Assembly (NCBI GenBank): GCA_903926075.1
Contig: CAIYHQ010000048.1
Location: 1-50,003 of the forward strand
Length of the DNA: 50,003 bases
From: an uncultured Methanomicrobiales archaeon
GTDB taxonomy: Archaea > Halobacteriota > Methanomicrobia > Methanomicrobiales > Methanospirillaceae
Reading direction: 5' to 3'
Each line of letters begins with the position of its first letter. The stretch's first letter is position 1. Positions 16,925 through 30,525 of this stretch are shown here, one piece after another. The notes under the pieces are model-generated. The model did not search any database. It worked only from the letters and a program-made list of their open reading frames with translations, and was not told the DNA's origin. The translations under genes were made by a program, and so were the position numbers.

Positions 16925-17204
16925 TTAGTAAAAATTGTAATTATTCACTGTCTCCTCTATAAACAGGATTCCACCAGGTTTAAGAGTGGTGAAGATCTCC
17001 TGTATTGCTGCTTCACGGTCTGGTATCTCACCAAGCACTGTTACTATAATAGCCCTGTCGAACTAGTCGGGTTCAAGCTTACCTTCACCAACCGCAACCG
17101 GCATCGAGCACCTTCATCCCAGGAGTGAGAGAAAGAATTTGGATTATTTTTTGTGTACGAGTGCTTACTTTGCCGGAAAAAGGGGATTCGAGAAATCCTT
17201 TCAT
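16925..17204 (-). pseudogene. SAM-dependent methyltransferase pseudogene
   Basis: Read on the minus strand in shifting frames: MKGFLESPF, then QKIIQILSLTPGMKVLDAGC (motif I), then after a frame change GEGKLEPD, a TAG, and FDRAIIVTVLGEIPDREAAI continuing into IFTTLKPGGILFIEETVNN and a stop. The order matches small class I methyltransferases, but the region between motifs I and III is deleted and at least two frame breaks and one stop are present. Its first part is antisense to the apparent start of the plus-strand beta-helix pseudogene frame. Confidence 0.75.
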
Positions 17205-17261
17205 CCATACCGGACAGGGAATCACATATCTACGGGAAGCAAAACGCCAAATCAGGCCGAT

Positions 17262-18290
17262 AATCAGGGTTCAGGGGTCACTTTAAACTCATCTACCAAA
17301 ACATTTTCGGGATTCGGACACGATTTTGCGATCCATATCAATTCGTCAGATGTCATTTTTGATGGTATGGGGGCAATACTTGACGGGGGCGGGTACACCC
17401 AATACGGAATCCTTGTGAACAACCAGAGTGCAAACAATTTTAATTCCTTATCATCCAACCCACTCGGCAAGATTAGCATTAAGAATATTACACTAATCAA
17501 TTTTGTGCAGGCAGGGATATTATTCAACAAAGTAATTGACACACTTTCCGGTCCAGGCTCAAATCCTTCAAGCATTACAAACGTAAATGCAAGTTATAAC
17601 GGCGATAATAGTGGGATAGTCCTAGAGAATTCTAATGGAATTGAAGTGAGTTCAAACACCGTGAGCAATAATCATAAAATAAATGTAGGGGGACTTGGTT
17701 ATGGCATATCTCTCGTTTCTTCCAACAACAACAACCTCATACGAAACATTGCTGATTATAACCCGGAATATGGTTTTAAGGTAGAGGATAGTTCCAGCAA
17801 CACATTCTCAGGCAACACTGCTACCGGGAATAATTTAAGCGGGTTCTATGTTTATCATTCTGATTCGAATACATTCACTGGAAACAAAGGATGTTATATT
17901 TGGGACAATTCAAGTTTTATCCCGTCAGACATCAATTACTGCAACTCAACACCATCACCTACAGGAACCCCCGACCCCTATTCACCTCCTGCGGCACCTT
18001 CATAGAATGTCGGGTCGATTACATCAGATCAGGGGACAAACAACGAAACACCGCATCCCTATGATATGCAGTTTGTCAGTTCAACGATACCTTCCGGATT
18101 AAACCCAGGTCAGACATTTACAGGGGTGATCACTGTCAAAAATACAGGTACAATGGCTTGGAACCAGTGAAGGAGTTAAATTCGGTTTGAGGTCGTTTGA
18201 TGATGCACTTAAGTTTGGTATTGGCGATATTATGCTCCCCCCAGGAACGACTGTCGAAAAAGGACAGGAATACAGCTTCCCCGTTACATT
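17262..18290 (+). pseudogene. Beta-helix surface protein pseudogene, paralog of the 21446 gene
   Basis: From SGVTLNSSTKTFSGFG onward the translation is clearly homologous to the intact gene at 21446-25021: DGMGAILDGGG, NGIEVSSNTVSNN, SGNTATGNN and the Cys-containing end FTGNKGCYIW. It has only a few of the roughly 26 repeats of the intact copy. An in-frame TAG at 18003-18005 occupies the position of a Trp. The frame then continues through the Ig-like domain (HPYDMQFVSS, ITVKNTGTMAW), breaks by a one-base insertion near 18164, and stops being homologous at SFPVTL, exactly where the HepT gene ends. The signal peptide and N-terminal Ser/Thr region are missing. The open frame extending left to 17139 runs into methyltransferase debris and is spurious there. 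Confidence 0.85.
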
Positions 18291-18706
18291 GATAAATCTT
18301 TTATTACCTGTTTCACTGTCTCGATATATTCCTTGATATCATCCATTTTTTCAACTATTGCTTCAATGTCCTGACGGTTCAGTCCAGTGTATTGATGAGC
18401 AAGTTTATTTCGGTAATAAACTAGATCTGACATAGTATGCATCAATTTTTCATCAATAATTCCATTATGATGTAATATGGTAAAAATATCACGGTAAGTA
18501 TGGGGGATTTTTCCGTGTATCAGGGATATCACTTCTTCACCCAGTTCAAAGCAAAGATTGAGAATTGTAAAGAGTACCATTGAAACACCATGGTATCTTG
18601 CAATATCACTCTCATCTGGGACACCCAATCTGGATAGAATAGTGAAATCTTTCTGGAAATGATCAATGTCTGCAATAATTGCTATAATTCTATCAGTTTC
18701 ACTCAT
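18284..18706 (-). CDS. hepT: HepT-like HEPN toxin (putative RNase)
   Basis: 140 residues from the ATG at 18706; a TTG at 18718 overlapping the upstream gene is possible. An all-helical HEPN protein with R-x4-H-x-Y: Arg99, His104 and Tyr106 in YYRNKLAHQYTGL. Known HepT toxins cleave RNA with the Arg/His pair, and the Tyr is AMPylated by the cognate MntA. Here all three residues are present, so it looks active. It follows the MntA gene with a 4-base gap, the usual antitoxin-toxin order. Its 3' end sits directly on the broken end of the beta-helix pseudogene, suggesting the pair arrived by insertion. Confidence 0.88.
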   Translation of the reverse strand: MSETDRIIAIIADIDHFQKDFTILSRLGVPDESDIARYHGVSMVLFTILNLCFELGEEVISLIHGKIPHTYRDIFTILHHNGIIDEKLMHTMSDLVYYRNKLAHQYTGLNRQDIEAIVEKMDDIKEYIETVKQVIKDLSM

Positions 18707-18710
18707 TATA

Positions 18711-19172
18711 TTAACCAAGTATTCTGATTTTCCATCGATTTCTCATTGATTCACAATCCATATAGGTTAGAATGACAGATCTTACAAGGTTCCGTTGATA
18801 ATTAGTGTCCCTGATAAATAATGGAATTCCATTAGTAAAAATCTGGAATTTTGCTGGGAGTGGTAAATCAGAAAAGACCTGTACATCATATTTTTTTGAA
18901 GAAAACGATCCTATACGCTCCTTTTGTTTCCGGGAAGATTTCGAAAAGCCTGTAATTACAGCAATATCAATATCAGAATATGGTTTCTGTTCTAAACGAG
19001 CATATGATCCATACAGATATACTGCCTGGACCTCTGGGTCCTTCCAAAGCTCACATAATATTGAATAAATCAATTGTTTGTCTTGATTTTCTAATCCTGT
19101 ACCCTTTAATAATTCAAATATTTCTTTGTTATCGGGTTTATTAGGCAATGGTTTTTTCATATTCTGATTCAT
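18711..19172 (-). CDS. mntA: MntA-like minimal nucleotidyltransferase antitoxin
   Basis: A 153-residue nucleotidyltransferase. It has the GSx10DxD signature, Gly55-Ser56 ... Asp67-x-Asp69 (YGSYARLEQKPYSDIDIAV), which defines MntA antitoxins that add AMP to the HepT tyrosine. The C terminus has the family pattern LTYMDCESMRNRWK. A second ATG at 19160 has GGATGA eight bases upstream and may be the real start, giving 149 residues. It is co-transcribed with the HepT gene. It is divergent from the kinase gene at 19286. Confidence 0.88.
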   Translation of the reverse strand: MNQNMKKPLPNKPDNKEIFELLKGTGLENQDKQLIYSILCELWKDPEVQAVYLYGSYARLEQKPYSDIDIAVITGFSKSSRKQKERIGSFSSKKYDVQVFSDLPLPAKFQIFTNGIPLFIRDTNYQRNLVRSVILTYMDCESMRNRWKIRILG

Positions 19173-19285: not shown

Positions 19286-20707
19286 TTGTTAGTGATACAT
19301 AATGATTCAGGTGGATTATTAAAGTATAGTTTGTCTTTTCTGAGATACTGTTCATTAGTATTTTGTAAGGAAATACAGGAAGATGAAGTAGTCCAAAATC
19401 ATAAGGAAAATTATGATGTCATAATTTCCGATTACCAGATGACGGGAATTGATGGAATTCAGTTCTTAACTCAGATCCGTAAAAAATTCAGAAAGATTCC
19501 ATTTATTCTTTTCACAGGGAAAGGCAGGGAAGAAGTAGTCATACAAGCGATAAACAGTGGAGCAGACTTCTATCTCCAGAAAGGTATAGAAACGAAATCG
19601 CAATTTGCAGAACTCGCGCAAATGATCAGGGAGGCGACATCCCGAAAAAGAGCTGAGCAGGCACTGCGGGAAAATGAAGAACAATTCAGAATATTGTCAG
19701 AGCAGTCCATATTAGGTATAGGTATTATCCAGGACGGGATCTTCCAGTATTTCAATGAAGGATATTGCGCAATCTCGGGTTATTCAGAAGATGAGATTCA
19801 CAGCTGGAACCGGTTCGAATATGCTAAAACTGTTCACCCGGAAGATTTGGATTTTGTAATGGAACAAATACAAAAAAAAGAGACGAATTCACCTGGTGCC
19901 GTAACGCATTACTCATTTCGCGCCCTCAATAAAGAAGGTGAGGTTATTTTCCTTGACCTTTACTCGAAGACTATCATGTACCATGGTCGTTACGCCGATT
20001 TTGTGACATTCATAGATATTACCGAACGTAAGCAGGCGGAGGAAGCAATCAGGCAGACAAACCAAAAACTTACCCTCCTCTCCAGTGTCACACGACATGA
20101 TATCAAAAACCAGCTGATGGTGCAGGACGGATACCTCAACATCCTCGAAGAAATGTTACCCGAACTTACTCATAATGACGATTTTCTGAAGGTTAAAACA
20201 GTTAAAGACCATATTTTTAACCTTATCCAGTTCACCAAAGAATATGAGCAGATTGGAATTAATGTCCCGTCCTGGCAGGACTGCCGGACCTTGATCAGTA
20301 TTGCAGCAAATCAAGCGAATTTTGAGCAGATTACGATAAAAAATGATTTACCGGCTGAATTTGAATTATTTGCTGACCCATTGATTGTTAAAGTATTCTA
20401 TAATCTGATTGATAATGCATTGCGATATGGCGAAATAATTACGAATATCCGGTTCTCTGTACAGGAACGCGATGGATCTTATATTATCTTATGCGAGGAT
20501 GATGGTATTGGTATACAGGCTGAAGACAAAAGTGAAATCTTTGAACGTGGGTTTGGTAAGAACTCGGGACTTGGATTAACCCTCGCAAAGGATATCCTTG
20601 ATATTTCTGGTATCACCATCCTTGAAAATGGTGAGCCTCAAAAAGGAGCAAGGTTTGAGATTGTAGTACCGATTGGGAAGTGGCGTTTTGAAAGAGACGT
20701 CAGGTAA
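19286..20707 (+). CDS. Receiver-PAS-histidine kinase with damaged receiver N terminus
   Basis: 473 residues in the open frame. The receiver keeps Asp49 (VIISDYQM), FTGKGREE and FYLQKG. Its first 40 residues do not resemble any receiver and lack the acidic metal-binding pair that paralogs show in LYVDDE. An out-of-frame ATG at 19302 starts M-I-Q-V, the usual beginning of these receivers, then hits TAA, so the N terminus has probably suffered a deletion or frameshift. Downstream lie one PAS domain (about 125-245), His271 in SSVTRHDIKNQ, NLIDNALRYG, EDDGIGI and GFGKNSGLGLTLAKDIL, all intact. The start is therefore uncertain, and the receiver is probably not phosphorylatable. The kinase core could still work. 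Confidence 0.75.
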   Translation: MLVIHNDSGGLLKYSLSFLRYCSLVFCKEIQEDEVVQNHKENYDVIISDYQMTGIDGIQFLTQIRKKFRKIPFILFTGKGREEVVIQAINSGADFYLQKGIETKSQFAELAQMIREATSRKRAEQALRENEEQFRILSEQSILGIGIIQDGIFQYFNEGYCAISGYSEDEIHSWNRFEYAKTVHPEDLDFVMEQIQKKETNSPGAVTHYSFRALNKEGEVIFLDLYSKTIMYHGRYADFVTFIDITERKQAEEAIRQTNQKLTLLSSVTRHDIKNQLMVQDGYLNILEEMLPELTHNDDFLKVKTVKDHIFNLIQFTKEYEQIGINVPSWQDCRTLISIAANQANFEQITIKNDLPAEFELFADPLIVKVFYNLIDNALRYGEIITNIRFSVQERDGSYIILCEDDGIGIQAEDKSEIFERGFGKNSGLGLTLAKDILDISGITILENGEPQKGARFEIVVPIGKWRFERDVR

Positions 20708-21419: not shown

Positions 21420-21445
21420 CAATATGATTCAATGGGTGTTTGTGG

Positions 21446-24400
21446 ATGAATCTATTTAGTAATCACTGCAGTATTCTATTTTTCTTTCTCGTCTTCTCAT
21501 TAATAACTGGAACAATTGTAACAGCAGATACAAATGGATTCTCATTGAATTCTACCGATATCTCATCATCTGATACAGGTTCTGTCCTAACGCCTGATGC
21601 AACCATTTCAACAGTAACAACTGCGGATCCAACAATTCAGCAAACATTCAGTATTGAGACTCAACTCCACCCAACCCCCACTATAACAATAAATGATCTA
21701 CCTACAATTACACCTACAGTAACTGAGAGCCTTCAGATTTTGGATACACCAACAGAAACTCAGAGCCCAAATGAAATTCACAAAACCGATTACGCAGTGA
21801 ATGAAAGTAGTTTCTCTATAAATAATGTAGAGGAAACCACTACTGCTCAAGCTGCTCAGGCCACATGGTCTGACCCTCCGTTGAATACATCGTCAAATAA
21901 TCCTTATTATTCCAATAGTAATAACAACTGGGTTATTAATGAGTCTGGCCATGACTGGACTATGGACCTTGATCCCAGTCATAATACAGGGTCAGGGGTA
22001 ACATTAAATTCATCTACTAATACATTTTCGAATTTCGGATCAACTTTTGCAATACTCATCAATGCTTCAGATGTATATTTTGATGGAATGGGTGCAATAC
22101 TTGACGGCGGCGGGAAAACACAATATGGTATTCTTGTGAATAATCAGAGCATTGGAAGTTATGATACTTTTTCATCAGATTCGTCAAATGCACTTAGCGG
22201 AATTAATATTAAGAATATCACACTTATCAATTTTTTAAACACTGGGATATTTTTTAATAATGTAATTGACACACTTTCGGGTTCAGGTTCAATCCCTTCA
22301 GCCATCACAAATGTGAATGCGAGTTATAATACAGGTAATGGTATTGTCATTAAAAACTCTAATGGAATTGAAATGAGTTCAAGTACTGCGAACAAAAACA
22401 TAGGGCAATATGGAATATATCTTTCTTCTTCCAATAACAACTATATCAACAGTAACACCGCCACCGGCAATCAAGGAGCTTGTGGTATTTCCCTTTCTGG
22501 AAATGATAACAAAGTCAACAACAACACTGCAGATAGCAACCTAATAAATGGGTTTGAATTATCGGGAAATAACAACATCATAAACAACAACACAGCAACT
22601 TATAGTCAATTGGCTTATGGATTTTGGCTCGGATCGAATTCTATCAACAATACCATCAACAACAACACAGCAACTGGTAATCAATATGATGGATTTTATA
22701 TTAGATCTAGTTCTAACAATAACCTCACTGGCAATATCGCTACTGACAATAAAGAGCATGGGTTTCACATTGATCAGAGTTCTAACAATAATCTCATAGG
22801 GAATGCCGCAACTGGCAATCAATGGGATGGCTTTTCCTTGGATGCAAATTCTAACAACAACAACCTCACAGGGAATACTGCAACAGGCAATTATCAGTCC
22901 GGGTTTGATATCAAAGGGAGTTCTATCAGCAACAACATTAATGGAAACAACGCAACTAGGAATTTTAATGGTTTTTCCTTGGATGCGAGTTCTATCAGCA
23001 ACAACATCAATGAAAACAACGCAAATGAGAATGCATTTGGATTTTCCTTGATTGGGAGTTCTAATAACAACCTGACAGGGAACGCTGCAAATGGGAATAC
23101 AGGAGAAGGGTTTTATCTTTATGGGATTTCTAACAACAACATCACCAACAATACAGCAACAGGCAATCACGAGTTTGGGTTTGATATCAGAGGGAACTCT
23201 AACAACAACAACGTTAATGGCAATACGGCAACTAATAATCATTGGGATGGGTTTTACCTTATTTCAAATTCTAACAACAACTTCAATAATAATAATGCTA
23301 ATAGCAATTACAATAATGGATTTAACTTTGAATCGAATTCTAACAATAACCTCACAGGTAATGCTGCAACCGGCAACCGTCAAAATGGATATTACATTAT
23401 TCAAAGTTCTTACAACAATCTAACTGACAATATCGCAACTGCCAATTGGTGGAATGGATTTAACCTCGAATCGAGTTCTTACAACAATCTTAATAATAAC
23501 ACCGCATCAAATAACCTCAATAACAAAACCGCCTATCAAGAGGGAGGATTTTACCTCCATTCAAGTTCAAATTACAATAACCTTAACAATAACATTGCAG
23601 CCGATAATAAATGGAACGGGTTTTTGTTTGATTCGAGTTCTTACAACAATCTCACCACCAATCATGCAACTAACAATTCATGGGAAGGATTTCTACTTGA
23701 ATTGAATTCCAATAACAATCTGACTAACAATACCGCTAATGACAATCAACAAAATGGAATTTTTCTTTTATCGAGTTCAAATAACAATCTGACTAATAAC
23801 GCCGCTACCGGCAATTCCGTGATGGGTTTTTCACTTGTACAGAGTTCAAATAACAATCTGACTAATAACGCTGCTACTAGGAATGGAATAAATGGATTTG
23901 AACTTTATAAAAGTTCAAATAATAACATTACCGCCAATACAGCAACCAGTAATAATTGCGATGGTTTTGTACTTTATCAAAGTTTAAACAACAATTCGCT
24001 CAACAATAATACGGCAATTGATAACCAATGGGATGGATTTTATCTTTATCAGAGTTTAAATAACACACTCAACAATAATACAGCATCAGGTAATCAATTG
24101 AGCGGGTTTAACCTCGAATCGAGTTCAAACAATTCGCTCAACAATAACACTGCTTTAAGCAATCAATTAAGCGGTTTTTATTTTGACAATTCAAATAACA
24201 ACACAATTATTGGAAACAATGGTACAGGACAAGATATAGGGTTCGATGTTAATTATTCTAATTCAAATACATTTACAGAAAATAAAGGATGTTATGTGTG
24301 GATAAATTCAAGTTTCATCCCTGTCGACATCAATTATTGCACAACAACTCCCATACCAACTCCAGTACCAACAACCAATCCCTCTACCTCTTCAGTTCCA

Positions 24401-25021
24401 ATGCCACCTTTCTGGAATAACGCCGGCTCCAGCACTTCAGACCAGGGGACAACAGATGAATTCCAACATCCCTATGATATGCAATTTATCAGTTCAACGA
24501 TACCTGTCGGAATTAAACCGGGCCAGACATTTACCGGGATTATTACTGTTAAGAACACAGGTACAATGGCCTGGACATCTGAAGGGGTAAAATTTGGTTT
24601 GAGACCGTTTGGTGATGCACTTAAGTTTGGTATAGGTGATATCATGATCCCTCAAGGTACGACTGTAGAACCCGGTCAGGAGTTTAGCTTTCCGTTCACT
24701 CTCATTGCTCCATTAGCCATGGGATCTTACGACCTTCAGTTCAGGACGTTCTTCATTACTCCTTCAAATAATGGAAATCCAGTAGCAACATTCTTTGGTG
24801 ACATAATTAATATAAACACAGACGTATCTTCAAACGCAAAGAAAACAGAGTCATTGGAGAAGAATCCGGGTTTTATTAGTTCTTTTACGTCCCCTGTTCC
24901 AACTCAGAAACAAGTTGCTCCAATTGTTACTTTATTAAGAAGATCGCCCACACTGATGTTAAAACCTACATCTACTAGTTATCACCCGACCCCAATCCTA
25001 GGACCTTATACAATAAAATAA
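21446..25021 (+). CDS. Giant Asn-rich parallel beta-helix surface protein with C-terminal Ig-like domain
   Basis: 1191 residues from the ATG at 21446. A signal peptide (to about residue 28, ending TIVTA) is followed by a Ser/Thr/Pro-rich stretch (30-145). A non-repeat cap follows (about 145-310, with DGMGAILDGGG), then about 26 repeats of 23-24 residues with consensus SSNNNLTGNTATGNxxxGFxL, typical of NosD/pectin-lyase-like right-handed beta helices. The cap ends at GCYVW. Residues about 1005-1125 are an NBR1-type Ig-like domain (FISSTIPVGIKPGQTF, ITVKNTGTMAW, DLQFRTFF). A basic Thr/Pro tail ends the protein with no obvious anchor. The many NxT/NxS sequons suggest dense N-glycosylation. It is probably an adhesin, a sheath component or a glycan-binding protein; no catalytic residues were recognised. 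Confidence 0.88.
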   Translation: MNLFSNHCSILFFFLVFSLITGTIVTADTNGFSLNSTDISSSDTGSVLTPDATISTVTTADPTIQQTFSIETQLHPTPTITINDLPTITPTVTESLQILDTPTETQSPNEIHKTDYAVNESSFSINNVEETTTAQAAQATWSDPPLNTSSNNPYYSNSNNNWVINESGHDWTMDLDPSHNTGSGVTLNSSTNTFSNFGSTFAILINASDVYFDGMGAILDGGGKTQYGILVNNQSIGSYDTFSSDSSNALSGINIKNITLINFLNTGIFFNNVIDTLSGSGSIPSAITNVNASYNTGNGIVIKNSNGIEMSSSTANKNIGQYGIYLSSSNNNYINSNTATGNQGACGISLSGNDNKVNNNTADSNLINGFELSGNNNIINNNTATYSQLAYGFWLGSNSINNTINNNTATGNQYDGFYIRSSSNNNLTGNIATDNKEHGFHIDQSSNNNLIGNAATGNQWDGFSLDANSNNNNLTGNTATGNYQSGFDIKGSSISNNINGNNATRNFNGFSLDASSISNNINENNANENAFGFSLIGSSNNNLTGNAANGNTGEGFYLYGISNNNITNNTATGNHEFGFDIRGNSNNNNVNGNTATNNHWDGFYLISNSNNNFNNNNANSNYNNGFNFESNSNNNLTGNAATGNRQNGYYIIQSSYNNLTDNIATANWWNGFNLESSSYNNLNNNTASNNLNNKTAYQEGGFYLHSSSNYNNLNNNIAADNKWNGFLFDSSSYNNLTTNHATNNSWEGFLLELNSNNNLTNNTANDNQQNGIFLLSSSNNNLTNNAATGNSVMGFSLVQSSNNNLTNNAATRNGINGFELYKSSNNNITANTATSNNCDGFVLYQSLNNNSLNNNTAIDNQWDGFYLYQSLNNTLNNNTASGNQLSGFNLESSSNNSLNNNTALSNQLSGFYFDNSNNNTIIGNNGTGQDIGFDVNYSNSNTFTENKGCYVWINSSFIPVDINYCTTTPIPTPVPTTNPSTSSVPMPPFWNNAGSSTSDQGTTDEFQHPYDMQFISSTIPVGIKPGQTFTGIITVKNTGTMAWTSEGVKFGLRPFGDALKFGIGDIMIPQGTTVEPGQEFSFPFTLIAPLAMGSYDLQFRTFFITPSNNGNPVATFFGDIININTDVSSNAKKTESLEKNPGFISSFTSPVPTQKQVAPIVTLLRRSPTLMLKPTSTSYHPTPILGPYTIK
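22410..24300 (+). repeat. Tandem coding repeats of about 69-72 bases
   Basis: About 26 imperfect in-frame repeats, each 23-24 codons, with conserved blocks for NNNLTNNTA and GFxLxSSS. Because the DNA is repetitive, several other frames on both strands stay open by chance. The repeat number is likely to vary by slippage or recombination; the pseudogene paralog at 17262 has only a few. Confidence 0.8.
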
Positions 25022-25096: not shown

Positions 25097-27553
25097 ATGG
25101 AAAATGAGATAAGAGTATTATTTGTTGAAGATTCGCCAGACGATGCAATATTATTGACAAATGTATTTGAAGATGGTGGTTTTAAATTAAAACAACGAAG
25201 AGTTGAAAATGTCCCCGAAATGAAAGATGCAATAACTAACGAAACCTGGGATATAATTCTTTGTGATTATTCAATACCTGGTTTTGGGGCGATTCCCGCA
25301 CTGTCGCTTTTAAAAGAGATGAAGTGTGATTTTCCTGTAATCATATTATCAGGTGTCATAAGCGAAGAGATTGCAGTGGATGCAATGAGGGCTGGAGCAC
25401 GCGACTTTATCGTTAAAGGTAAATATTCCCGTCTTATCCCTGCAGTCAAGAGGGAGATTGAGGAATACATACAACTTAAAGAACGGGAGGCAGAAGCAAA
25501 GAAACAGAAAGATGAAGCAAAAAAGCAGCGTCAGCTTGCTTTCACGATGGTTATGCAGAATCCCCAGCCATTACTAATTATCGACACTGCCTTTAATATA
25601 AAACTTGCAAACGAAGCTTTCCTAACCATAAGCGGATATTCTGAAGATCACTTGCAGAAGATGAATATCAGTGAATTCAAAATTTTAAAAAAGAGCGGGC
25701 ATAACCTCAGGGAAGCTGTTGAGACAAAAAAGGGAGTCACCGGGCAGGTCATTGTTGAGTTCCCAAAAGCCACCCATACACTTGAACAGATCACTATCCC
25801 TCTGCTCGATAAAGATGGTGAGATAGTAAGCATCATGGCAGTGTATAACGATCTCACCGAGAAACTAAAAAAGGAAGAAAAACGAGAGGAACTGGCTAAC
25901 TATATCACTGCCTATCTCTCCTCAATGACTGATAATTTAATAGAACTTGCTAAAGGAAATCTCAATTTCAACTTAGAGATTGCACCTGCTTCCAAAACAA
26001 CCGAAGAAGCACGCCAATGGTTTACTGAGATCAATAATAACCTTGCCAAAGTTAGAGATGCACTCGATCTCTTGATTTCTGATGCTGATAGACTTTCAAA
26101 AGCTGCTATTGAGGGTAAACTTCACACGCGTATCGATTCACAAAAACATCAGGGTGATTATAAGAAGATAGTTGAGGGTATGAACGCAACTTTGGACGCA
26201 GTCATTGGTCCTTTGAATGTTGCTGCGGATTATATAGATAACATTAGTAAGGGAAACATACCCACAAAGATTACTGATTCATACAATGGTGACTTCAATG
26301 TCATCAAAAACAATCTTAATCAGTGTATTGAAGCTGTTAACCTGCTTGTTCATGAAGCCCACATGCTTGTCAGAGCAGCAGTAAATGGGAAATTGTCAAC
26401 GAGAGCAGATTTGACAAAACATCAGGGGGACTTTAGGAAGATTGTAGAAGGCGTGAATCACACCCTTGATAGTGTTATTTTACCTGTGAACGAGGCACTT
26501 CGTATCTCTAAGAGTTATGCTGATTATGATTTTACGAATCGAGTCTCAACATCGCTGAATTTACAGGGTGACTGGGTACCGTTTAAAGATGCTTTGGATA
26601 ATATTGGCATCAAGATATCAGAAGCAGTTTCCCTAATCAATAAGAAAGTGACAGAACTCGCGACAGGTGCAGAAAAAGCAAAGGCAAACATTCAGGATAT
26701 TTCAAAAGGGGCTCATCAGATAGCAACAAATTCAAATAAGGTTAGCAAGAACGCAGAACAAGGAGGAAATGGTATATCTCAGGTCCTGAGGGCAATGGAA
26801 GATTTAAACGAAACAGTTGCATCAGTCTCAAAAAAAGCAGAATTTGTTTCTGCATCATCGAGTGAAGCAAATAATTTTGCGAAGAATGGGATTGATCTTG
26901 CCAGGCAGACTGAGAAGGCCATGAATGAAATCGCAAAATCTGCAAAAGATGTTGATTCAATAGTGAATGATATTAATGAACAGATGAATGAGATAGGAAA
27001 GATTGTTAAGCTAATTTCTGATATTGCCAACCAAACCAATCTTCTTGCTCTCAATGCAGCAATTGAAGCAGCACGTGCCGGAGAAGCAGGAAGAGGATTT
27101 GCAGTTGTTGCAGCTGAAGTTAAATCACTTGCACAGGACTCGAGGAAATCTGCAGAAAATATAGCTGAAATGATCTCAACTTTGCAAAGCAAATCAAAAA
27201 ATGCCACTGAAGCGATGAATAAATCTACTACATCCGTTCAGGAAGGGAGCGTAGCTCTAGAGCAAACTCTGGCTGCATTTAATCAAATCGCAGATACTAT
27301 TGAGAATATAACTCAAAATAATGTAGAAGTAGCTTCTGCTTCTGAAGAGCAGGCAGCATCTGTTGAAGAAGTTACAGCAAGTATTCATGAAGTGTCAGAA
27401 CTTGTTCAGAATACATCCCATGAAGCAGAAAATACTGCTGCCGCTACTCAGGAAACGACTGCAGCAATCGAAGAGATTAGCGAAATTGTTAATAATGTTG
27501 TAGGAATTGTGGACAGTGTATCACAGGAGATGATGAAATTTAAGGTTACATGA
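25097..27553 (+). CDS. Soluble methyl-accepting chemotaxis-like protein: receiver, PAS, HAMP-like repeats, MCP domain
   Basis: An 818-residue protein without transmembrane segments. Receiver at 1-125 with Glu11/Asp12 and phosphoacceptor Asp57 (LCDYSIPG). Coiled coil at 130-150. PAS at about 150-260 (ending [12 protein letters not shown]). Poly-HAMP-like repeats at about 265-510, where [14 protein letters not shown] and [14 protein letters not shown] head two copies, each followed by KHQGDxxKIVEG. MCP signalling domain at about 520-818 with the hairpin tip [27 protein letters not shown] split here as [20 protein letters not shown] and RGFAVVA. GAGGAAGAG precedes the ATG. It is the first gene of the sensory cluster. 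It would normally control CheA, but none is in the window. The receiver fused to an MCP suggests input from a phosphorelay. Confidence 0.92.
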
Positions 27554-27725: not shown

Positions 27726-28343
27726 ATGAATGTATCTGAAGAAGTAATAGATGGTATTCGTGAATTAGTCACAATAGGAGTTGGCCGCTCGGCTGGAATG
27801 CTTAACCGACTCACCAAAGCTCACGTAACGTTGACGGTTCCTGAAGTTCAAATTTCAAATGTCACTCAAGATATCCAACTAATCAAACCTACAGCAAATT
27901 CAATAAATTCGGAAGAAATTTCTCACATCATTCTTGAATTTTCTGGAGAATTGACAGGATCATTTGATCTTATCATTCCTTTTTTAAGTGCCCTAAATCT
28001 TGTTATGCTCCTTACAGGAGAAAAAGAATTATCAGATGAAATGGATGCTCTACGGGTTGAAACACTGCTAGAGGTAAGTAATATCATTATCAGCTCTGTA
28101 ATGAGTTCTCTGAGTATTTTTTTAAAATCTCGGCTTTTATTTCAATTTCCTCGTTAGCAGGTTGGAAAAGCCAAATCAATCATTCCTTATGCGATAACTG
28201 GAACCCTTATCGGAATTATCGCTCATACTCATTTTCTTGTTCAGGATAGACATGTGGAAAGTGATATATTCATAACCTTAACACCTGAATCATTTCAGTA
28301 TCTAAAAATCCATATAGAACAAGCGATGGAGAATGGATTATAA
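27726..28343 (+). pseudogene. CheC-like protein interrupted by an in-frame TAG
   Basis: From the ATG at 27726 (MNVSEEVIDGIRELVTIGVG) the frame runs 143 codons to a TAG at 28155-28157. It then continues without another stop, as QVGKAKSIIPYAITGTLIGI and onward, to a TAA at 28341-28343 that overlaps the ATG of the next gene (TAATG). The region after the TAG corresponds in position to the C-terminal third of the second CheC at 29911. CheC proteins dephosphorylate CheY-P at two ExxN sites; the second (EVSN) is intact, while the first reads ELVT, lacking Asn. It is either a recent nonsense mutation, or the TAG is read through or decoded. The truncated 143-residue product would lack part of the core. 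Confidence 0.7.
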
Positions 28344-29458
28344 TGTGGGATGAGAAAAAATCTCTCATTGCTCTCAATCTCAATACACTTCCAGTGGGTA
28401 TCTGTATAATAAGAGAGAATTATACTATCTCTCTATGGAATCGGACAATTGAACAATGGTCTGGTTTAATAGCAACGGATGTACTTGATAAACCAATTGA
28501 GGAAGTGGTTCCACGATTTGCAGATCCGCTCATTCAGGAGCGTGTACGAGTAGTCTTTCGAGGTGGAGGTCCTGTTATTTTCTCATCCAGGTTTCATTCG
28601 AGAATCTTCCCAATTTTATCTGAAACTCAGAATGAAGGAAAAATTCAAAGAATAACCGTATCTCCCTTTGAACTGTCTGATGGAGAACCACGTGCAATGA
28701 TATCAGTTGAAGACGTTACTGCAATTACTGAACAGGTTCTAAAATACCGTCAAATAAAAGATATGATAAAAAATGAACTTGAAGAGAAAAAGAAAACTGA
28801 ACGGGCATTAGCAATTGCTCTAAGTAAATTAAATACACTCTCATCTATCACCCGACATGATCTCAACAATGTTCTGACAGCATTCCTGGGTTATCTCACC
28901 TTTGCACTAGATGAAAAACCAGAAGGAAAAATCATTACATATCTTGGAAAAATGAAACAGGCTGCTCAACTAATGCAAAACCACATAGCCTTCGCCCGTG
29001 ATTATCAGGAGATGGGAAATTCACTTCCATCCTGGTTCAATGTTGAATCACTTGTTAGATCTTCAGGGGTTGGCCCAACTTTTTCGGGCATGACACTTAA
29101 CGTTGATACTGGGACACTTGAAGTCCTTGCAGATCCACTTATTGAAAAAGCAATCTATAATCTACTGGAGAATGCAGTTAGACATGGAGAACATACGACA
29201 CAAATCACTATTCGAAGTATACCAATGGAACAGGAAGTAATAATCATTATTGAAGATAATGGAACCGGTATTCCTCTCCAGATTAAAGGGCGGATATTTG
29301 ACAGGGGATTTGGTTCAAACACAGGATTAGGATTATTTCTTGTTAGGGAAATCCTTGGAATAACTGGTATGCAGATTATCGAAACGGGTACAGAAAATAT
29401 AGGTGCTAAGTTTGAAATACGTGTTCCAACAGGTCATTTCAAATATACAGGACATTAA
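28343..29458 (+). CDS. Cytosolic PAS histidine kinase
   Basis: 371 residues. One PAS domain (about 5-125, ISLWNRTIEQWSG to ISVEDVTAITEQ), a coiled coil (125-155), phosphoacceptor His172 in SSITRHDLNNVL, N box NLLENAVRHGE, G1 EDNGTGIP, G2 GFGSNTGLGLFLVREIL and the end NIGAKFEIRVPTG. All kinase motifs are present. The ATG overlaps the stop of the CheC-like frame, so it is coupled to that gene. Sitting between two CheC genes and a CheY gene, it could be the phosphodonor of the cluster in place of CheA. That role is inferred from position. Confidence 0.9.
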   Translation: MWDEKKSLIALNLNTLPVGICIIRENYTISLWNRTIEQWSGLIATDVLDKPIEEVVPRFADPLIQERVRVVFRGGGPVIFSSRFHSRIFPILSETQNEGKIQRITVSPFELSDGEPRAMISVEDVTAITEQVLKYRQIKDMIKNELEEKKKTERALAIALSKLNTLSSITRHDLNNVLTAFLGYLTFALDEKPEGKIITYLGKMKQAAQLMQNHIAFARDYQEMGNSLPSWFNVESLVRSSGVGPTFSGMTLNVDTGTLEVLADPLIEKAIYNLLENAVRHGEHTTQITIRSIPMEQEVIIIIEDNGTGIPLQIKGRIFDRGFGSNTGLGLFLVREILGITGMQIIETGTENIGAKFEIRVPTGHFKYTGH

Positions 29459-29552: not shown

Positions 29553-29918
29553 ATGACTCGCATCTTAATCGTTGATGACTCATTATTCCAGCGTCGTATT
29601 ATCACTGTACCTTTAAAAGCCAAAGGATATGATGTTATTGAAGCAGTGAACGGAAAAGAAGGCCTGGAAAAGATCATTGCGGATAAACCAGATGTGATTC
29701 TTCTGGACATTTTGATGCCTGAAACCGATGGGATTAAAGTACTAAAAGAACTCCAACGAATTCAGAATAAAATTCCAGTGATTATGCTCACTTCTGATGT
29801 TCAGGATACAACACGTGAAGACTGTCTTTCGATAGGTGCAAAGGCATTTATTAATAAACCTGTGAAAGCGGAAGATTTAATTCCGGTTATTGATTCTCTT
29901 CTCTCGTGCCATGAATGA
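29553..29918 (+). CDS. CheY-like single-domain response regulator
   Basis: A 121-residue stand-alone receiver: Asp8/Asp9 (VDDS), phosphoacceptor Asp52 (LLDILMP), Thr80 in MLTSD, and Lys in FINKPVK. No output domain. It overlaps the start of the second CheC gene by eight bases. Unlike the N-terminal receivers of the hybrid kinases it has the CheY form, so it is the likely diffusible signal carrier of this cluster and a substrate of CheC. Confidence 0.93.
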   Translation: MTRILIVDDSLFQRRIITVPLKAKGYDVIEAVNGKEGLEKIIADKPDVILLDILMPETDGIKVLKELQRIQNKIPVIMLTSDVQDTTREDCLSIGAKAFINKPVKAEDLIPVIDSLLSCHE

Positions 29919-30525
29919 TATGCCTGAATTAATTCTTGACGGAATTCAAGAACTGGTTAATATTGGAATTGGCAAATCTGCCGGGAGTCTGAATTCTCTT
30001 ACAGGACATCATGTAACCCTGAATATTCCAGTTATTTCTCTCAATCTCGTTAATAAACTTACAGATATATTTTCATATCAGGATGCATCGTATTCGATTG
30101 TCAGCCAGGATTATTCTGGAGCATTTGAGGGAACTGTAATTCTTATTTTTCCTGAAAAGAGCTCAGATAGTTTGTTTTATCTTCTTACGGGAGAAGAAAA
30201 AAGGACACCAATGAATGACGATCTTTGGAAAATGACCTTTGTTGAAATCGGTAACATAATAATCAATGCAATTATGGGATCAATTGCTAATATTCTTGAA
30301 AAAAAAATAGAATTTCATCTTCCTGTATATCATGAGAAATTTCCAGACAATCTTCTCATTTTTACACAGTCCGATATATCACAATCTGTTATCATAGCTC
30401 GAACCCAATTTTCAGTTGATGAAAATGAGATTTTTGGGGAGATTCTCCTTCTTCTTGCAGATCCGTCAATTGGCGTTCTCACTGAAGCAATTAATAAAAA
30501 AATGGGAATTTGCGGGGAGATATAA
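29911..30525 (+). CDS. cheC: CheC-like phosphatase
   Basis: 204 residues from the ATG at 29911, which overlaps the CheY stop; a TTG at 29890 is less likely. Two pseudo-symmetric CheC motifs are present: ELVNIGIGKSAGSLNSLTG (about residues 12-30) and EIGNIIINAIMGSIANIL (about 112-129), both with the ExxN phosphatase pair. Known CheC proteins dephosphorylate CheY-P and may bind CheD; no CheD is visible here. It is intact, in contrast to the amber-interrupted copy at 27726. Confidence 0.88.
   Translation: MNDMPELILDGIQELVNIGIGKSAGSLNSLTGHHVTLNIPVISLNLVNKLTDIFSYQDASYSIVSQDYSGAFEGTVILIFPEKSSDSLFYLLTGEEKRTPMNDDLWKMTFVEIGNIIINAIMGSIANILEKKIEFHLPVYHEKFPDNLLIFTQSDISQSVIIARTQFSVDENEIFGEILLLLADPSIGVLTEAINKKMGICGEI

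Follow-up and report, generated by a model that had tools for sequence, protein, structure and literature searches.

A CheC-type gene on contig CAIYHQ010000048.1 of an uncultured Methanomicrobiales archaeon, within the 50,003-nucleotide stretch that we analysed (the window), is interrupted by a single in-frame TAG. We consider it likely that this stop is a recent nonsense mutation, which turned the TAT or TAC codon of a conserved tyrosine, Tyr144, into TAG; the affected gene is the first of two CheC-type genes in a conserved CheC-kinase-CheY-CheC operon. Translation bears out the initial annotation on the layout of the frame, which occupies positions 27726-28343 of the forward strand and consists of 143 codons, the TAG at 28155-28157, 61 open codons, and a TAA at 28341-28343; the overlap of this TAA with the start of the downstream kinase (TAATG) is likewise confirmed, at 1 nt. 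The operon and its upstream neighbor comprise the following features.

25097..27553, forward strand: receiver-PAS-HAMP-MCP protein, chemoreceptor-like (domain matches)
27726..28154, forward strand: part of the CheC-type gene before the TAG, 143 codons (alignment, Pfam matches below cut-off, structure profiles)
28155..28157, forward strand: in-frame TAG, in an alignment column occupied by Tyr
28158..28343, forward strand: 61 open codons and TAA, covering the strands at the C-terminus of the CheC fold and its last helix (alignment, model)
28343..29458, forward strand: PAS histidine kinase, with its ATG at 28343-28345 overlapping the CheC stop
29553..29918, forward strand: CheY-like single receiver protein (Response_reg, E 3.9e-28)
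29917..30525, forward strand: CheC-type paralog, intact, with ELVN and EIGN as its two ExxN motifs and TAT as the codon of the conserved Tyr (domain matches, alignment)

The nature of the change is most apparent from the codon itself. The initial annotation had proposed comparing orthologs at this position, and we aligned 27 homologs: four orthologs, the paralog at 29917..30525, and 22 CheC-type proteins at a greater distance. All 27 have Tyr in the TAG column, encoded by TAT or TAC. With the column Tyr throughout, the change amounts to a single third-base substitution from Tyr to amber. The tail at 28158..28343 is untranslated unless the TAG is read through. At the local composition, 61 codons would stay open by chance with a probability of about 0.011, and stops are present in all five other frames of the same stretch. 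All 61 residues align with the C-terminus of intact orthologs and share their end point, and we therefore regard the tail as real coding sequence. The earlier description of the tail as CheC-like thus stands where it is aligned to orthologs, but the isolated 61-residue tail has no Pfam match, and its CheC character is visible only in that alignment.

The genomic context points in the same direction. The gene order is CheC, PAS kinase, CheY-like receiver, and CheC, with the affected gene first of the four and the intact paralog 2 kb downstream of it; the CheC proteins probably have the CheY-like receiver as their partner. ORFs that match in order and size, with intact reading frames, are found in two relatives, G006 and G023, the latter probably M. 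hungatei-like (relatives that bear a name are Methanospirillum genomes), so that intact syntenic orthologs carry a sense codon where the host has TAG. The CheC-kinase overlap is 1 nt in the host versus 4 nt in G006 and G023. In G023, no counterpart ORF of the chemoreceptor-like gene was found directly upstream. Elsewhere in the window, the receiver domain of another kinase, at 19286-20707 (forward strand), matches profile positions 38-104 only, and its start may be truncated.

Assignment of the interrupted protein rests mainly on fold. A profile search against solved structures recovered CheC (2f9z and 1xkr, E 4e-19) over most of the length, as well as the archaeal CheC-like 3qta, whereas the Pfam CheX/CheC matches of the part before the TAG lie below the curated cut-offs. 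A model of the read-through sequence, built from a shallow alignment and with a mean pLDDT of 73, has CheC, FliY, and CheC-like chains as its best fold matches (TM about 0.76 to CheC), and fold and sequence of the read-through protein together agree with CheC. The family's two ExxN motifs are not both present: the second, E116-V-S-N119, precedes the TAG and is retained, but the first reads E13-L-V-T16. The protein is thus CheC-type by fold and not a canonical two-site CheC; in CheX-type proteins a single site suffices. The altered first motif had been taken as a sign of relaxed selection, which we reject, as the motif is ELIT or ELVT in four intact orthologs, including those of Methanospirillum and G006; being common to intact orthologs, the change predates the TAG.

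These motifs also bear on whether the 143-residue product could be a functional short CheC with one active site. The TAG leaves the second ExxN motif in place, and intact orthologs already have an altered first motif. We nevertheless find a short functional form very unlikely, because all aligned homologs, including the diverged ones, extend beyond the TAG point, because the model places long strands at 161-172 and 175-185 and a last helix at 187-202 after it, and because no other match across 61 genomes contains an internal stop.

The initial annotation left open whether the stop is a very recent mutation or is suppressed or decoded; our results favor the former, and no support was found for the latter. 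Decoding of the TAG, as pyrrolysine or as Tyr by a suppressor tRNA, would give a full CheC of 205 residues. The open and conserved tail suits such a reading, under which the absence of a second lesion is also expected, and the ancestral Tyr could be restored by a Tyr-type suppressor. The search for pyl genes that had been proposed came back negative, however. In the host genome, a 134-contig draft that is 97% complete, PylS has no match above the family cut-off, PylB has only weak matches (at most 32 bits against a cut-off of 348), and neither PylD nor MttB (TIGR02369) has any match. Across the order, PylS above cut-off was found in none of 232 Methanomicrobiales genomes, while the M. acetivorans positive control matched. 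No CUA anticodon occurs among 46 Rfam tRNA matches in the host genome, an absence that is strong and not complete, as at least two tRNA genes found later are not in the Rfam list. Pattern searches for tRNA-Pyl and amber tRNAs returned known tRNAs or, where checked, matches without tRNA structure. Thus, none of the features by which we judged pyrrolysine decoding (PylS, pylB with pylD, a CUA tRNA, MttB) was found in the host at the cut-offs applied, and we reject it on the results for PylS, PylB, PylD, and MttB. An amber suppressor tRNA is rejected as well, since no CUA tRNA was found and the tRNA-Tyr carries GUA, although at 97% completeness a suppressor tRNA or aminoacyl-tRNA synthetase gene could sit in a gap. 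The tRNA-Tyr gene, which the Rfam search missed, has a short intron and adjoins tRNA-Asp on contig C50 (L110:16619-16723, about 116.6 kb); its anticodon was read as GUA by eye from the stem pairing, and ARAGORN calls it Asn.

Stop usage bears on the same question. In sampled stretches of the host genome totaling 450 kb, TAG terminates 24 of 258 ORFs of at least 200 aa (9%), including a SecY-like and a uL2-like ORF, which we take to be such from their C-terminal sequences. TAG is therefore a working stop in the host, and genome-wide reassignment is rejected on this count. The longest extensions past TAG in this sample resemble the next gene in the same frame. Taken with the missing decoding genes, the use of TAG to end SecY-like and uL2-like ORFs makes decoding or suppression at the CheC gene highly improbable. 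The six bases after the TAG, CAG GTT, also fail to match CAR-YYA, the known readthrough context. We give equally little weight to an unrecognised tRNA or leaky readthrough yielding some full-length CheC. If the UAG were read, the efficiency of readthrough would set both the level of phosphatase and the coupling to the kinase, and this in an order that lacks pyrrolysine. According to the initial annotation, a pyl-free genome with orthologs carrying a sense codon would mark a simple recent pseudogene, and this is the situation found, as far as tested.

A recent nonsense mutation also agrees with how often frames are broken in this genome. The host has a very large signalling repertoire, with 134 receiver-domain matches in 3.1 Mb, and in-frame stops occur in five of these (three TAA, two TGA); the absence of TAG among the five is a further point against decoding. 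This share is close to the archaeal pseudogene fraction of about 3.6% given by a survey of 64 prokaryotes (PMC522871). One nonsense-broken signalling gene in the window is within expectation. We consider it unlikely, if less so than decoding or a short functional CheC, that the consensus of the draft assembly is wrong at one base of the TAG, with TAT or TAC as the true codon and the gene intact. TAG is a single base away from the ancestral Tyr codon, the tail shows no damage, and in a draft of 134 contigs a lone consensus error would look identical to a young mutation; however, substitution errors are rare in well-covered consensus, and with in-frame stops common enough in host signalling genes, such an error is not needed.

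A second TAG-interrupted gene in the window, of the NosD/beta-helix type (17139-18300, forward strand), is decayed and carries several lesions. Its frame runs over 17139-18005 and ends in a TAG at 18003-18005, after which homology to the C-terminus of an intact protein at 21440-25021 continues through a frameshift (an extra base near 18160) until the end is lost at about 18280. A HepT-like RNase and a nucleotidyltransferase, forming an MNT/HepT type toxin-antitoxin pair at 18284-19172 on the reverse strand, abut the cut end and are possibly part of the insertion that cut the gene.

Returning to the nonsense mutation in the CheC-type gene, several comparisons speak to its age. Every comparison shows lower conservation in the tail than in the remainder of the gene (G006 and G023, for instance, are 62% identical before the TAG position and 38% after it), and the tail's low identity is thus no sign of decay. 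Unique changes in the host versus G006 number 8 versus 11 before the TAG and 5 versus 3 after it, with no excess of lineage-specific changes after the TAG in the host. On the host branch, a branch codon model estimated omega at 0.07 for the part before the TAG and at 0.34 for the tail, neither significantly different from background, and omega = 1 was not rejected for the tail, a weak test given that 61 codons are too short. These results agree with a mutation of young age relative to the split from G006, and such youth would account for a tail without visible decay. No relative turned up in a scan of viral contigs.

If the TAG acts as a stop, translation would end after 143 residues. According to the model, the protein would then lack the greater part of a short strand starting at 143, both of the long beta strands that follow, and the final helix; it would keep the second active site but is unlikely to be a stable phosphatase. 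The kinase may be affected as well, as the TAG lies 185 nt from its start and gaps of about 20 nt nearly abolish stop-start coupling in Haloferax volcanii and E. coli (PMC10666635). The kinase has thus probably lost some or all of its translational coupling, and less of it may be made unless the GGAG located 11 nt upstream of its ATG suffices. CheC of B. subtilis is an established CheY-P phosphatase (review, PMC2666748), and the intact second CheC of the operon, having both motifs, can probably still remove phosphate from CheY-P and may buffer the loss. Most likely, then, no new genetic code is involved, and the CheC gene was broken recently by an ordinary mutation (or the assembly is wrong at one base). 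A possible recoding lead in Methanomicrobiales is closed, given the lack of PylS above cut-off throughout the 232 genomes searched and the ordinary use of TAG as a stop in the host. With this mutation, one of the operon's two CheC genes is caught just as it is being lost, and the broken gene would offer a test of translational coupling to a sensor kinase.

Compared with known systems, the gene resembles the pyrrolysine-decoded amber genes mtmB, mtbB, and mttB in its in-frame TAG and conserved tail, but differs from those systems in that the host has no pylS, pylB, or pylD above cut-off, with neither tRNA-Pyl nor MttB found, and in that its homologs have Tyr, not TAG, throughout. It is like the CheC phosphatases (T. 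maritima 1xkr and 2f9z, archaeal 3qta) in profile and fold match, in the ExxN motif of the second half, and in the CheY-like receiver gene nearby; unlike them, the host's ortholog group has ELxT in place of the first ExxN, and the host copy ends at residue 143. With single-lesion prokaryotic pseudogenes it shares syntenic intact orthologs, one disabling change, and little further decay, and it differs from them in no notable way, the lesion here happening to be an amber codon.
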